From Candidatus Altimarinota bacterium (GTDB taxonomy: Bacteria; Patescibacteriota; Gracilibacteria; BD1-5; UBA2023): a stretch of 64,000 nt of DNA. Shown piece by piece: positions 22,749 to 35,134 of this stretch. Numbering within the stretch: the stretch's first letter is position 1; the number at the start of each line of letters is the position of its first letter. The notes beneath the pieces were generated by a model. It saw only the letters and a list, made by a program, of their open reading frames with translations. It made no database searches and was not told where the DNA came from. The translations under genes were made by a program, and so were the position numbers. The stretch spans positions 62,001-126,000 of the forward strand of contig JAQTWX010000001.1 of assembly GCA_028689065.1 (NCBI GenBank), written 5' to 3'.

Positions 22749-24167
22749 ATGAACTTTCAGTTTTATAAATTCTTAATTTCCTGAGTAAAACAAAAAGGTT
22801 TTACTCTTATAGAGATTCTTCTTGCTATTACTCTTTCGTCGATTCTTATGACTGGAATTGTTGTATTTGTCTCAAGTTCTCTCGGATCGAATATAACAAC
22901 GAAAAGAATTCTTGAAGATGGAAATAAAAATGAAAAAATTGAACAACACCTGATGCAAACACTTGGAAATGTCAGTACGCTTTATGTCACTTGAGCAAGT
23001 TTCGGCGAATACTTAACTGGCACATTCCTCTGAACAAAGAGTTCGAATCTTCCTATAACCTTTCTCGGACTCCGAACAGAAACAGGATACTGTGATAGTT
23101 ATTCTGGAACAGCCGATGCTCCAGAAACTGTTCTCAAATTAGCCATACGTCAATTTGCTGTTCCGACAGAACAAAACAATGTCCCTGGATACACTCTCTC
23201 ATCCACCGGAAATTCCATTTCTTTCGGTACAAATCGCATTATTGGTACTGGTTATCCAGGAAATGATTTGGATACAAACTCTTGAGCTCTCACAGAACTC
23301 TCCTCTCCAAGTGCTCTCATATCATCAGGAAACCATCTTTATATCGCCGACACGATGAATGATCGAGTTTTATCCTATGATATTACCTCTGGTAGTATAA
23401 TGAAGCTTCTTGGACCAGAAAATGGAATTCGAAAACCAACAAGTTTATATTTCTCAGGAAATATCCTCCTTATTGCCAGTAGCTGAAACGGGAAGATATT
23501 TAGTCTCCAAGATGGTGATACAGGAAATGGTTCCACTTTTTCTGGAGCTTTTCAAGTAGCAAATAATTTTCAAGCAGATAATATCCGATTTACATTTTCT
23601 GGAATTTCTTTTGTTACTCAACCAACGACAACCGGAGATTTTATTTTGGACGGAGTAACTCAAAAATTGGACGATGTTGTAACTCCCGGAACAAACTTGC
23701 AATATACTCTCTCCTGAGGAGTTCAGAATTTTTCAGCGGGAACTTTGTATAAATTCAGGGTAAGCAATATTTCAACTCCACCGACAACTCCTGGAAATTA
23801 CACGGTACAGATAGATTTCCTTAGTGGGAACACTCTCCAATACTTCGATACTTTTCATTATTTTACCAAATGAGACGGATCTCTCGAGAGTAATACGGGG
23901 AATATTATTAAGATAATCTCTTGAGGACATATTTATCCCCATAATATTACTGGAGCCAATAATTGGGATAGTACCATCGATTGGAATACAGTTCTCGGAC
24001 AAAATCCCCCAGGAAATGAGGTATTCTCTTCTCTTCCTATTCAGGATTTTTCTTCTCATGTAATAGGAAAAATACTCACTCTTCGATATCATCAATATAT
24101 CAAATATGATTGTATACTTGGAAAACATCAGATAGAAGAAAAAATCTTTAAAATATTACTTCCATAA
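22749..24167 (+). CDS. prepilin-like surface protein with NHL-type repeats
   Basis: The code-25 frame gives 472 residues with eight TGA codons. The N-terminus is a class III (type IV pilin) signal: KQKGFTLIEILLAITL, with Gly before Phe and Glu at +5, to be cut by a prepilin peptidase. Residues about 170-260 resemble NHL propeller units (GNHLYIADTMNDRVLSYD, then GNILLIASSGNGKIFSL). The C-terminal half is strand-rich. It could be a minor pilin or pseudopilin carrying an adhesive head. Confidence 0.8.
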
Positions 24168-24212: not shown

Positions 24213-24644
24213 TTAAAGATCAGAAAAATCAGCAGGAAGCATATCTCCTCCAGAAGATCCTGGAGCAATCATAATATCATTTTTATTTCCAAAGATTTTT
24301 CCAGAAAGATCCTGAATAGTGGAAAAAATCACTTTTGGCGAAACATAGTTGGAAACATTAAGTCCTAGTAAATCTCCCACCTTCGGTGCAACAAATATAG
24401 AAAGAATTATGATAATAAGTCCTACTACCGCATAACGAATGCTATTAATCGCAGGTTTTACTTTTTCATCCTTTCCTCCAGAAAGAATAAGCATCATTCC
24501 TCCCCAAAGGATAAAAATAACAGAAAGAAAACCAGAAACTAGGACTACAAGAGCAATTCCTACACGGATAATATCATTGATTTGATATGTCTGATTTGGA
24601 TCAATAGCAGCGGAACCTGCAGCAAAAGCTATATCAATAAACAT
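24213..24644 (-). CDS. VirB2/TrbC-like small membrane protein
   Basis: This 143-residue protein has a short leader, two membrane segments (GIALVVLVSGFLSVIFILWG and YAVVGLIIIILSIFVAP) and between them the MMLILSGGKDEKVKPA loop typical of the VirB2/TrbC pilin-like proteins common in this radiation. It may be a pilin-like subunit of an envelope machine, or only share the two-segment layout. No TGA is used. No other type IV secretion genes are in the window. Confidence 0.7.
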   Translation of the reverse strand: MFIDIAFAAGSAAIDPNQTYQINDIIRVGIALVVLVSGFLSVIFILWGGMMLILSGGKDEKVKPAINSIRYAVVGLIIIILSIFVAPKVGDLLGLNVSNYVSPKVIFSTIQDLSGKIFGNKNDIMIAPGSSGGDMLPADFSDL

Positions 24645-30407: not shown

Positions 30408-30854
30408 CTATTTTCTTATGAGCTCTTTGATGGCCCCTTTAATCACTTGTCGTGGTTCTCCAAATGAAGAATCTCCTTTCTCTACTGAAAATACTCTCGT
30501 ATAAATAGTTCCTATGTATGAACCCGTATTTGTAACAAGATCTCCATTTTTATCGATATATTTATATCATTCATTCGCACTTCCCGTGAATATTTGAAAA
30601 GACTGAGAAAGTGGATCTTTATAAACAAAAAATACATCTTTCTCTGAAAGATTGCTCGTATCTATTTTTCTTACAATATTCTCTGCATTATATTGAAGAA
30701 CAGATAAAGTGTTATTTTTATCATAATCTTCTTCAATAGCACTTCCTTGCATGAGAATCATAACAGCTCCCCCTATTGCAATTACAAGAATTACTATTCC
30801 TACTATAATAGAAACGAGGGTTTCTCCATTTTTTATGTTTGAAAAATTGTACAT
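30408..30854 (-). CDS. pilin-like protein with an atypical class III leader
   Basis: The frame of 148 residues has one TGA (ANEGYKYID) and a TAG stop. The N-terminus reads KNGETLVSIIVGIVILVIAIGG: a Gly then a hydrophobic helix like type IV pilins, but the residue after Gly is Glu and +5 is Ser instead of Glu. The rest is a small soluble domain. It is divergent from a classic prepilin gene 116 bases away, so both may assemble in the same filament. Confidence 0.7.
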
Positions 30855-30970
30855 AATAGGTATACTCTATAACAAATAGAAATGGAAGATAAGAGACTTT
30901 AGCAAACAACTATTTTCCCCTTGCTCTTCGAAAACTATTTTTAGTATATCTGAAATCATCTGAAAAAAAA

Positions 30971-31597
30971 ATGAAAAATCGTTTTACGAAATGAATCATC
31001 GGTTTTACTCTCATTGAAATAGTTATTTCTATTAGTATCTCCGTAATAATAATGGGGGGGATTCTTGGATTTCTCACAAAAATCCAGAGCGATATCATTA
31101 CCTCAAAACAATCCACTCGTATACACATAAGTCTCGCGGACTTTACTAGTACGATGCGTAATTTTGATAAGCTCTATGCAAATAAGGAAGTGATTGTAGG
31201 AGGAAGTGGAACATATAATGTATGACTTCTCACAAATCCAGATAAAACTGCTTGAGTTCTCATTGGAGTAGTAACATGAAAGAGTGGTAATATTTCTACT
31301 CTCGATTCAGATAAAAATACCTATGGAAAGAAAGTTATCGCTTATCAAAAATTAACTACTTGACAGATAGATTCGATACTTGCTTTCACAGGAAGTGTTT
31401 ATAATATAAACTTCTTTGATGAATGACTTTTTAATGATCTCACCGTAACGGATTTCTCTATTATCTCCTACAATTCGGGTTCTCTTTTGGAATATACGTT
31501 TAATGTAGAGACTCCTTTTTATGAATCTCTTCAGGGAAAACAACGAGATAATATAGCCCCAACAGTTACAGTATTCCCCTTTACTCTTGATTTATAA
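30971..31597 (+). CDS. prepilin-like protein
   Basis: A 208-residue code-25 frame with six TGA codons. The leader GIIGFTLIEIVISISISVII is a textbook prepilin motif, Gly before Phe and Glu at +5. The C-terminal part is strand-rich. It is followed after 3 bases by the next gene, so the two form one unit with a minor-pilin look. Confidence 0.83.
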
Positions 31598-31600
31598 AAT

Positions 31601-32764
31601 ATGTTGAATCGTAAATGAAGCGTGTTTCTTTATGCTGTGATGATTAGTTTTTTTGCAGTTCTTATTGGATATATCATATCTATCAAGATAGACACCCTCA
31701 TGGAAAATCTCGATATCCAAAACTATGATATAAAACTTCATTCTAATATTACAGAAAAGGCGAATCTTTCTACAGGATACAGTACATTTCTCAATACTAA
31801 TGGAAGTGGTTTTGTAAATACAATATTATGTCCTGATTCAGTAACAATGAGCGGAACATACGCTGGATGAATATCAGTAACCATACCTACTATTCCATTT
31901 TTCAACAATACTTCTTTTGCCTGTTCTTGATCAACTTTAGAAGGAAATCTTCTTCTCTTATATTCCTCAGGAGGGACATTTTTTACAACAGGAAGCTATC
32001 GTTGATCTACTATATCCTTAAATCCAGGAGGCTCTTCACTTCATACAGGGACATTTTCCGATGGATCAGGAACTTTTCTTTCTTTTACTGCAACTTGAAC
32101 ACTTTCTGATATAGATTTGGATGGAAATTCTGATAACTTTCAAACTTCTTCTACAGGAATAATTATGTACCCGAACGATCAATTCGATGATGATGATCTT
32201 GCAAGAAAGACTTTTTATGGCTATCTCAAAAAGGATATTGGATGGTATAACGTTTTTGTTATGAACACTCCCGTTCGTAAATACATCGGAGCAAATATCC
32301 ATAATACTACTCCTTATTTTTCCAAAGCATGAGATACTCAAACCGGGTATCTTCGATTAGATATAGATAATCCGTATAGTATCAAAATAGCCGAACTTGA
32401 TAAAACACAATTTGAGAGTATACAGGAGATGAGAATTCTAACAGAAAATATTACTTCTTTTTCCACAGGAGGTATCGGATGGGTAATGCCAGATTTAACT
32501 CTCTCTGGAGTGAAAGACTGAGCAAAAGTATTTGACCTTAAAAATAAAGATTATGCGATATTTCTCTCTTTTTCTGGTAATCTTACCAATACATGAATAG
32601 ATTTTCTCAAATACAAAATCTCAATGGAAAATGAAAACGGATCAGGGATTTATATCGTACCAATAGACGACTCGACGAGTGGTATTACAAAATACCTTGG
32701 AACGGATATTCTCATCGACCAAGAAGGAAAGTATCGATATAAACAATTTGAAGTTGCGCGATAA
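31601..32764 (+). CDS. membrane-anchored pilus-associated protein, unknown family
   Basis: The code-25 frame gives 387 residues with nine TGA codons. One N-terminal membrane segment (VFLYAVMISFFAVLIGYII) is followed by a large exported part rich in Ser, Thr and Gly with strand-like spacing. It begins 3 bases after the prepilin stop. The layout resembles PilX-like minor components but no motif proves that. Confidence 0.75.
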
Positions 32765-32767
32765 ATG

Positions 32768-33367
32768 CTATTTTACATCCAGAACTACTTTTCCTTTGAA
32801 TTTATCGATTCCAAGTCCTCCCATAGTACGAGAATCTACACTATTGACGGTATTGTCCCCAAAAGCAAAAAAACTTCCAGTTTGCATACGAGAATCTTCT
32901 AGATACATACTCATATATTGCACTTCTTTTTCGGAAAAAACATATTCATCTTCCACGCTATTTTTCAGCACTGTCCCATTTACTACCATCTTTCATTTTT
33001 CGAATTTAACAATATCTCCCGAGAGGACCCTGACCTGTTTAATAATAGGTCCAGGAGTAGTGAAACTCTCATAAATAATAATATCCCCCCTTTCCACCTT
33101 GCCTGTACACTGGTAATAGTTATCGAGAACCTTCACTTTCTGTCCATCTTTAATAAGCGGAGTCATACTATTTCCAGAAACTCCGTATTCTATGTTCGTC
33201 ACCTTGCAATCCTCCGCTTTTGGACTATTGACAATAACTTCGGAGGAAGGAGTTAATCGAGAGATTGTCTTTTTTAAAGATACATTTTCCCACTGTGTCC
33301 AAAAAAATAAAGCTCAAAATATAACTACTCCCATAAACAATAGTATACTCCAGATATTTTTTTTCAT
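32768..33367 (-). CDS. lepB: signal peptidase I
   Basis: The 199-residue frame (two TGA codons) shows one N-terminal membrane segment, the catalytic Ser67 in SGNSMTP, Lys110 in PIIKQVRVLSGD, and the GDNTVNSVDSR box. This enzyme cuts the leaders of exported proteins. It converges with the pilus gene (3 bases between stops) and sits inside the surface-protein locus. It will not cut prepilins, which need a different peptidase. Confidence 0.92.
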
Positions 33368-33421
33368 ATTACAACGGGAAAGATATAGTATTAAAAACTG
33401 TTAAGTTTCAATGAAGAGTTC

Positions 33422-34312
33422 TTACTTACAACAAAGAGCGTATGAGTAATAGTACATAATATTATAAGGAATATTTTTAGTGCAATCATCATAAATTGCA
33501 GATCCGTTCAGAGTTACCACGTTTCGATATGTATCGAGTCCGGTTTGATAACCATTGCAAGACAATGAATCGCTGATAGTATATTTTGGAGCCATAGAAA
33601 TACTCACGGTTCATCCAAGAGAAAATAGAACATTAGTACTCTGAGGATAGCCTACTTCATAGGTATAACCTACCGGTCCGTTACTAGCTATAACACTATA
33701 TACTTTCGTATATCCCGTGGTACAGGAGGCATTAAAATTTGTCGTACTATTAGTAGTTGCTTTGTTCATATAGCATCCGAAGTAGGAAGTTCCTGCGGCA
33801 CTTGCAGTATTAGCAGCTACCCATGCAGTAGTCGCTATCCTTGTGGAATTATCCCCGTTATTCGGTGTTGTTGCAGTCGGAGTACCAGTAAGAGCAGGGC
33901 TTACGAGAGGTGCTTTTAGATTTAGTGCTGTTTGTGTTGCTGTGCTGATTGGTTTGTTTACATCGCTTGTATCATCCACATTTCCGAGTCCGACATCTGC
34001 TTTTGTGAGTACTACAGATCCCGTACGAGTATTAACAGAAGTAACACTACTTCCACCACCGATACCTGAGAGATCAAGATACTCCTGTTTTATCTTCCCT
34101 TCCAGTGTCCCTGTTCCGAAAATAGTAGAGAGAATATATCCGAATTGTCCTTTTTGATTTGGGACATTCGGGAGCCCAGGGTCAGTCGACCGAAGACTAT
34201 TCAGATAGTTTAGTACGGTCGTATCCTGTGATGCACCGTACGTAAATCCTATTGTTACAATAGTTATGAAAACAAGAAGATAAGCTCTTATTGCATAATT
34301 TGCGTTCTTCAT
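33422..34312 (-). CDS. secreted protein with phage tail-fibre-like repeat region
   Basis: From ATG at 34312 the protein has 296 residues with one TGA. A signal peptide (YAIRAYLLVFITIVTIGFTYGAS) is followed by a middle region with SVVLTKADVGLGNVDDTSDV and a KAPLVSPALTGTPTATTP-like stretch then ATTAWVA, a pattern well known from phage tail fibres and their collars. The C-terminal part has Cys pairs (FGCYMN, NASCTTG, SLSCNG, YDDCTK). It is probably an adhesin or fibre, made and exported by the cell. Confidence 0.8.
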
Positions 34313-34441
34313 AGAAAAAAAGTAAAAAAGTATATTTATAATCATTGTTTCAATATCGAGCGACATTATAGTACAACGCCTCCGAGAATCAAATATTTTT
34401 TCGTATCGGGTTTTGTATTTTTTACAAAAGCAAGCGTTGCG

Positions 34442-35134
34442 CTATTTTATAATGTAAAAAATAACCTCCTGTCATAATTTCCCGGCAAGTCCTTTTCACT
34501 GAATGGTAGACGGATTAAAATCTGGAGGAAGATTCATTATAATAGTACTATTGTTATTTACAAAAAATGGATCGTTTCCAGAAGGAAGGGATTGATTATT
34601 TTGAGCAAGTGCCACTACTTCAAACGATATTCATTCAAAATTCTGAAATCCTATTTGTTCACCATAAGCATATCCATGAAGTTTTTTATCAGCTTCACAA
34701 TAATAAACAAAATTGTTAGTATCATAGTTAAAGTTAATATATCCAGCAGTATCACTATAGGCATATCCAGAAAACTTATATCCATATCAGGAGCCACACT
34801 TATCGGTAGAAGAAATAATATGAACATTTTTCATCATATCTACACCATTCCAATCTAATTTAAAAAAACCAAACTGAGAATCGTAGTAATATCCTCTCAA
34901 ATAGTTTCCGATAACGTCACTGTCATTATTTTTATTCCAATAAGAGGTTATTTCTGTGGAAACTCCTCCCAATGAAAACCAGACCTGACTTCCATTGGAA
35001 CCATAAGAAGTAGCTCATTGTGAAGGAATATTTATGTCTAGTACATCGAGTGCTAATACAGTACAAAAACTTCCGAATAAAGATACAAAAATACCTAGAA
35101 AGATTTTTTGTATGGATGGAAAGAATAACTTCAT
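34442..35134 (-). CDS. secreted surface protein with GYAY-type repeats
   Basis: The frame has 230 residues and five TGA codons. The signal peptide is KIFLGIFVSLFGSFCTVLA. The body has aromatic-rich repeats such as GYAYSDTAGYINF and GYAYGEQIGFQNF, which look like the GYAWSxNIGWINF repeats of surface proteins in this radiation. It ends in TAG and follows the locus of other exported proteins. A structural surface role is inferred. Confidence 0.75.

Follow-up and report, generated by a model that had tools for sequence, protein, structure and literature searches.

A conserved pilin-like locus as a candidate type IV pilus tip with a phage-fibre-like adhesin in Gracilibacteria

Do pilin-like genes that lie beside a gene for an exported protein of the phage tail type encode a device for host contact? 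Host recognition and binding in Patescibacteria are described as largely unknown (PMC12206443), and expression of type IV pili has been reported for Gracilibacteria (PMC11452946). The question is raised by a locus in a 64,000-nucleotide stretch of DNA (the window, meaning the whole stretch that was analysed) from a tiny bacterium that is probably host-dependent and whose assembly of 24 contigs totals 1.04 Mb (completeness 96). The initial annotation had proposed that this combination of genes could build a fibre for contact with a host cell.

The genes of the locus are interrupted by TGA codons under table 11 and are open under NCBI table 25 (frame listing), the Gracilibacteria-type code in which TGA specifies Gly. 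TGA stands for an amino acid in conserved genes elsewhere in the genome as well: three of the six T2SSE (pilus ATPase) matches contain it internally, and it also occurs within T2SSF matches. The source genome has to be read with code 25. Read in this way, the locus contains six genes.

30408..30854, minus strand: pil148, a pilin-like protein of 148 aa with a G|ETLVS start, lacking Glu at mature position 5
30971..31597, plus strand: pil208, a prepilin of 208 aa (G|FTLIE)
31601..32764, plus strand: pil387, a pilin-like protein of 387 aa with a KG|SVFLY start
32768..33367, minus strand: signal peptidase I (PF10502 E 5.8e-19, TIGR02227 E 1.6e-22)
33422..34366, minus strand: tail-type exported protein, likely start at 34312 (296 aa), signal peptide recognised by inspection
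34442..35134, minus strand: GYAY protein of 230 aa with two GYAY units, judged by inspection to be exported

The components named by the initial annotation (pilin-like proteins on both strands, a signal peptidase I, an exported protein with the phage tail-fibre motif KADVGLGNVDDTSDV and an aromatic-repeat surface protein) were thus all recovered. An EF-G gene flanks the locus on one side and L32/nusB/rnc-type genes on the other (named by inspection), while an Rfam scan of the whole window gave six tRNAs and nothing else. The window holds two further pilin-type genes. A 472-aa prepilin (22749-24167, plus strand; PF07963 E 1.6e-7) has a C-terminal part that resembles NHL-type propeller repeats by eye, with no Pfam propeller match, and is reminiscent of the Saccharibacteria propeller pilin PilX2; next to it, 24213-24644 (minus strand) encodes a T4SS_pilin family protein (PF18895 E 5.9e-7, above cut-off).

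The earlier remark that the locus has no pilus ATPase or platform gene was correct, as no match to either falls in the window, and the search elsewhere proposed with it located the assembly genes outside: the six T2SSE matches, six T2SSF domain matches corresponding to three platform genes, and a prepilin peptidase with one match above and one below the cut-off. For genes around this machinery, PilT-, PilM-, PilN- and PilO-type names would be assigned by inspection only. The source genome also carries 28 N_methyl (prepilin) matches at E<=1e-3 in its 1.04 Mb, so that a prepilin nearby means little on its own. Chance clustering of prepilins was nevertheless set aside, as the triplet, the GYAY gene and the tail-type gene recur together in relatives.

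The comparative check proposed with the initial annotation revealed a neighbourhood conserved within the order. Matches to pil387 were found in 38 of 59 genomes (source genome counted); a profile search found them in 43 of the 288 class genomes, every one belonging to the same order. When all 38 stretches were mapped, the triplet was together (pil208 at most 200 bp and pil148 at most 1.5 kb from pil387) in 35, and in 33 of these pil148 was divergent. The three failures comprised two loci cut at contig ends (G041, G051) and one in which pil387 lies in two frames (G052). Two of six same-genus relatives (G001, G005) had neither pil387 nor a tail match. Compared with L045 or L048, the window has its triplet inverted with respect to the GYAY-tail-peptidase block.

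Only pil208 combines the class III signal (G|FTLxE) with a hydrophobic helix in its sequence; its matches to PF07963 (E 0.0052) and to NCBIfam ComGE (E 8.9e-6) both fall under the respective cut-offs. The signals of pil387 and pil148 are variants without Glu5: position 5 of the mature protein is Tyr in pil387, invariant in 18 aligned members, and Ser or Gly in pil148 (16 of 17 aligned rows readable). This resembles PilX and GspK, which are placed at the tip and have lost Glu5 (PMC7541494). No Pfam family scored above its cut-off for pil148 and none matched pil387; PilX_N (PF14341) was absent among the matches of 18 pil387 members at E<=1, and Pfam with these members and a PDB search with the pil387 profile gave nothing useful.

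The signal peptidase I belongs to the S26 family, with both profiles above cut-off, and is the second of its kind in the source genome; the other copy (C16:122870-123409, E 1.5e-39) scores much higher. A peptidase of the locus type was present in four of 41 mapped stretches (the window, L040, L048 and L049).

The tail-type protein consists of an N-terminal module (the columns of profile A3), a tail-fibre module and a Cys-rich C-terminus of 122 aa. Its best PHROG match is a minor tail protein (E 1e-16), and one solved tail fibre was matched weakly (E 0.00098). Phage records matched by the middle module number 236; among the matches listed (25 of 236), identity was 61-86% over 33-57 aa and no alignment extended beyond residue 77 of the 215-residue query. 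In a scan of viral contigs, five were matched, in the fibre module only. The last 122 residues form an orphan tip, with the source genome the sole match among 288. An AF2 model (monomer, 17 rows) predicts helices in the first ~81 residues (block pLDDT 58-85 over residues 1-80) and is unreliable past about residue 134 (pLDDT <50, pTM 0.26), leaving the fibre unmodelled. Pfam found neither an S74 domain nor a PilY1 propeller in this protein.

The similarity of the middle module to phage records (61-86% over 33-57 aa among those listed) might also be expected of a phage gene remnant or a recent phage-derived insertion with no function in the host. We regard such an origin as very improbable and set it aside: the frame is open under code 25 and bears an export signal, the N-module is restricted to the order and paired with GYAY, and no other phage-like gene was noticed in the 22-42 kb part of the window.

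The exported N-terminal module (tailN) spans ~85 aa. Its profile, A3, matched 33 of the 288 class genomes; in 19, all belonging to the order, the match was strong and covered the first half, and in the remaining 14 it was weak (E 1e-5 to 6e-4) and nearly always lay in the later profile columns. Matches to the GYAY protein were found in 20 of the 288 genomes (strong in 18), and of 13 named records with a GYAY relative 12 are labelled “Candidatus Gracilibacteria” and the other “bacterium”. Most of 12 aligned GYAY members end in FYIIK. The AF2 model of this protein has a beta-rich core, for which no PDB or viral structure matched at E<=0.001; a second comparison listed small beta-barrels with Z up to 6.7 (8ah9, rmsd 2.8, 96 aligned), a range deemed common, and no fold is therefore claimed. 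A PDB search with the GYAY profile gave nothing useful.

Several further GYAY-type sequences were observed. A weak second match in the source genome (E 2.8e-4) lies just outside the window (G000:C7:58514-58795), and a match with internal TAG and TAA in G033 (C12:30213-30962) is possibly a decayed copy. Longer GYAY-type proteins (478-509 aa) occur by tailN paralogues away from the triplet in L111, L113 and L115, those of L111 and L115 without the FYIIK end.

GYAY and tailN are closely paired. Strong matches to both were present in 17 of the 288 class genomes, to tailN alone in two (G004, G008), to GYAY alone in one (G054) and to neither in 268; among the 43 genomes with pil387 the corresponding numbers were 17, 1, 1 and 24. 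Fisher values for this pairing (2.7e-24 and 7.4e-10) ignore relatedness and serve as a guide only. With one tail copy considered per genome, a GYAY-type gene lay less than 3 kb from the tail gene in 16 of the 17 genomes (exception G002). Two of these cases are weaker: what lies near the tail gene of G057 is a fragment of 33 residues at the end of a contig, and the nearby gene of G033 is of the longer type, the strong GYAY match of that genome being on another contig and containing TAG and TAA. Among 13 named GYAY loci, which partly duplicate genomes of the class sample, a tailN gene follows GYAY in 10 and the triplet is in view in seven. In G008, which lacks pil387, weak prepilin-type matches precede the tail gene by a few kb (L114). 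A 242-aa prepilin adjoining GYAY in G003 has its counterpart in the source genome elsewhere (L124; 72% identity over 201 aa).

Linkage of tailN to the pilins was also recurrent. tailN and pil387 were at most 10 kb apart in 12 of the 18 genomes having both (11/17 plus G288, whose pil387 came from the profile search), and two genomes outside the match list of the class sample (G013, G022) showed the same linkage. Of the six unlinked cases, three have the tail match at a contig end (G029, G042, G045) and three have the genes on different contigs (G002, G027, G033). The binomial value of 8e-14 assumes independence and a 3.6% chance, and overstates the linkage. Genus g20 offers a view of the pair as a unit: in G035 and G046 it stands between pil148 and a ~260-aa prepilin, and in G053 and G044 these two genes are adjacent, about 45 bp apart, the flanking proteins being 54-82% identical. 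To judge from these gene orders, the pair behaves as a cassette.

Behind the conserved N-module, the C-termini vary. In four same-genus relatives the pilins and GYAY are 54-77% identical to those of the window and the N-part of the tail protein 45-65%, with the rest of the tail protein giving low local scores only (the tail copy of G002 is an unlinked one, and G004 lacks GYAY). This divergence is not universal, as G022 and G013 share 74% identity over 1138 residues and G003 and G006 have ends in common. Ten proteins in the tail slot, picked for length, were scanned with Pfam; nine adjoin the triplet, and the contig of the tenth (L089) shows GYAY and a prepilin only. Peptidase_S74 was found in six of the ten, while the L087 protein combines Gp10_C with Gp34_trimer (T4 gp34 E 1.4e-13 and gp10 E 2.2e-8 against solved structures) and that of L082 an RCC1 propeller with Phage_fiber_2; those of L091 and L040 had no Pfam match, and none of the ten a PilY1 propeller domain. 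A looser capping-like pattern occurs in 12 of 14 proteins and is absent from that of the window. A survey of 59 genomes yielded 49 S74 matches in 27 genomes. Twelve of the 49, in nine of the 20 genomes with both, were within 10 kb of pil387 and 37 lay away from it; S74 fibres are therefore a wider repertoire with a concentration at pil387.

Other tail-type genes were noted in passing. L120 (8635-13001) and L053 (2647-6537; G036) have two consecutive tailN genes, flanked by a single GYAY gene on one side and the pilin triplet on the other. A second putative family of exported fibres has a different common start (GSGLTASAWN- or SGTQFTADIWN-like) and occurs in L098 (1407-2054, minus strand), L101 (6247-6828, plus) and L040 (8676-10283 and 10335-12245, plus); two of its members stand directly behind pil387 in G004.

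An improbable explanation of these arrangements is that the triplet forms a pseudopilus tip of the type II secretion kind (GspI/J/K-like), which would release the tail-type protein as a secreted binder or weapon. Patescibacteria are not known to possess an outer membrane, and without one a piston would not be needed; moreover, Pfam found no enzymatic domain in the tail protein of the window or in the ten tail-slot relatives; the missing Glu5 of pil387 would fit this model. So would the comparison of PilY1 with T2SS substrates (PMC7541494).

The chief alternative is a surface fibre for host contact that does not depend on the pilus and is anchored by the N-module, with the link to the minor pilins reflecting joint regulation only. 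Copies of tailN do occur away from the triplet, and the S74 fibres with VGxx-P-xxx-L repeats resemble the description of the Bdellovibrio mosaic adhesive trimers (MAT; PMC10769870). We consider this explanation doubtful, though deserving of attention, because the linkage repeatedly involves one particular pilin triplet, the pair takes a cassette position, and the N-module is predicted by AF2 to be helical, in contrast to the ~130-aa beta-rich MAT domain.

The reading that we favour, at a confidence that is evenly balanced, is that this locus specifies a type IV pilus tip together with an accessory tip cassette for a phage-fibre-like host-recognition adhesin. It draws on the integrity of the triplet (35/38), the GYAY-tailN pairing, the linkage to pil387 (12/18), the cassette position in g20, the S74, gp34, gp10 and RCC1 tips, the assembly genes, the missing Glu5 of pil387 and pil148, and the precedent of Saccharibacteria, which bind hosts by a pilus whose PilX2 carries a propeller (PMC12206443). 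Against it stand the six unlinked genomes of 18, tailN paralogues off the triplet, the pair's absence from most triplet genomes (25 of 43 lack strong tailN), the lack of PilX_N in pil387 and of S74 in the window protein, the 37 of 49 S74 matches away from pil387, and a fibre that AF2 did not model. The contact fibre of the initial annotation is a reasonable and partly supported proposal, since neither of the outcomes named as refuting it (an unconserved neighbourhood, a genome lacking assembly genes) was observed; joint assembly, surface location and host binding are, on sequence evidence, conjectural parts of that proposal.

We infer the following course of events, including tip loading, trimerisation, host binding and the roles of GYAY and the peptidase. 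The three minor pilins would start the pilus and be seated at its tip. The GYAY and tail-type proteins would be exported by Sec and trimmed by a signal peptidase, possibly the extra copy of the locus. The short N-terminal module would hold the tail-type protein on the minor-pilin tip, perhaps through GYAY, and the C-terminal part would form a fibre, probably trimeric, made of phage tail-fibre modules. This fibre would bind a receptor on a host or prey cell, and retraction of the pilus would then pull the cells together. Somewhat more tentatively, and at a little under even confidence, we suggest that the type IV pili of Gracilibacteria are equipped with receptor-binding proteins of the phage-tail-fibre kind that can be exchanged. 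The means would be a two-gene tip cassette, comprising a GYAY connector and a fibre whose docking module is specific to the lineage; through gain, loss and re-tipping of this cassette, host range would evolve by fibre exchange as in phages. The virus-like fibre may thus act as an interchangeable grappling hook by which these bacteria recognise their hosts.

Beyond the initial annotation, the analysis adds code 25, the conserved N-module with its varied C-termini, and the GYAY-tail pairing. A pilus-linked adhesin with readable, varied tips would single out candidate receptor-binding proteins by name in a group that has not been cultured, and would make host specificity testable with recombinant tips. 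The locus is not described in the extracts of PMC11452946, PMC8080830, PMC12206443, PMC10769870, PMC7541494 and PMC8179133. In the open-licence PMC literature we found nothing joining endosialidase with the candidate phyla radiation, or tail fiber, type IV pilus, tip adhesin and minor pilin; Gracilibacteria together with tail fiber led to a phage paper only.

The locus can be compared with several known systems. As with PilY1/PilC, a Sec-type exported non-pilin protein is encoded with minor pilins, the putative tip pilin lacking Glu5 (PMC7541494). In PilY1, however, the C-terminal propeller is the conserved part and the N-terminus is variable, whereas here a short N-module is conserved and the C-terminus varies; as neither the window protein nor the ten relatives contain a PilY1 domain, the protein is not filed as PilY1. 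In the CofB/CofJ system of the ETEC type IVb pilus, a tip minor pilin is the adapter for a separate secreted adhesin (PMC8179133); the trimer there is the pilin CofB, and the likeness drawn here is one of design. By analogy, the best reading is that the adhesin of the locus would work like PilY1 or CofJ without being a PilY1 homologue. The PilX2 pilus is likewise a patescibacterial host-binding pilus, with an RCC1-type propeller as in the L082 protein, but its propeller is part of the pilin, whereas here the binding part would reside on a separate exported protein (PMC12206443). Phage tail fibres (T4 gp34/gp10, the KADVGLGNVD-type module) have domains in common with the tail-type proteins, whose modules are recognised by sequence comparison; these proteins, however, are encoded by the cell, bear an export signal and have an N-module that is confined to this order. 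The MAT proteins of the predator Bdellovibrio are likewise exported, resemble phage fibres, occur with and without S74, and join a conserved N-domain to tips that vary (PMC10769870). Their N-domain differs (~130 aa and beta-rich, as against ~60 aa and predicted helical), for which reason the protein is not filed as MAT, and a pilus locus is not reported in the extract of that paper. If the favoured reading is true, one locus would unite pilus-tip adhesins with the phage-like fibres of predators.
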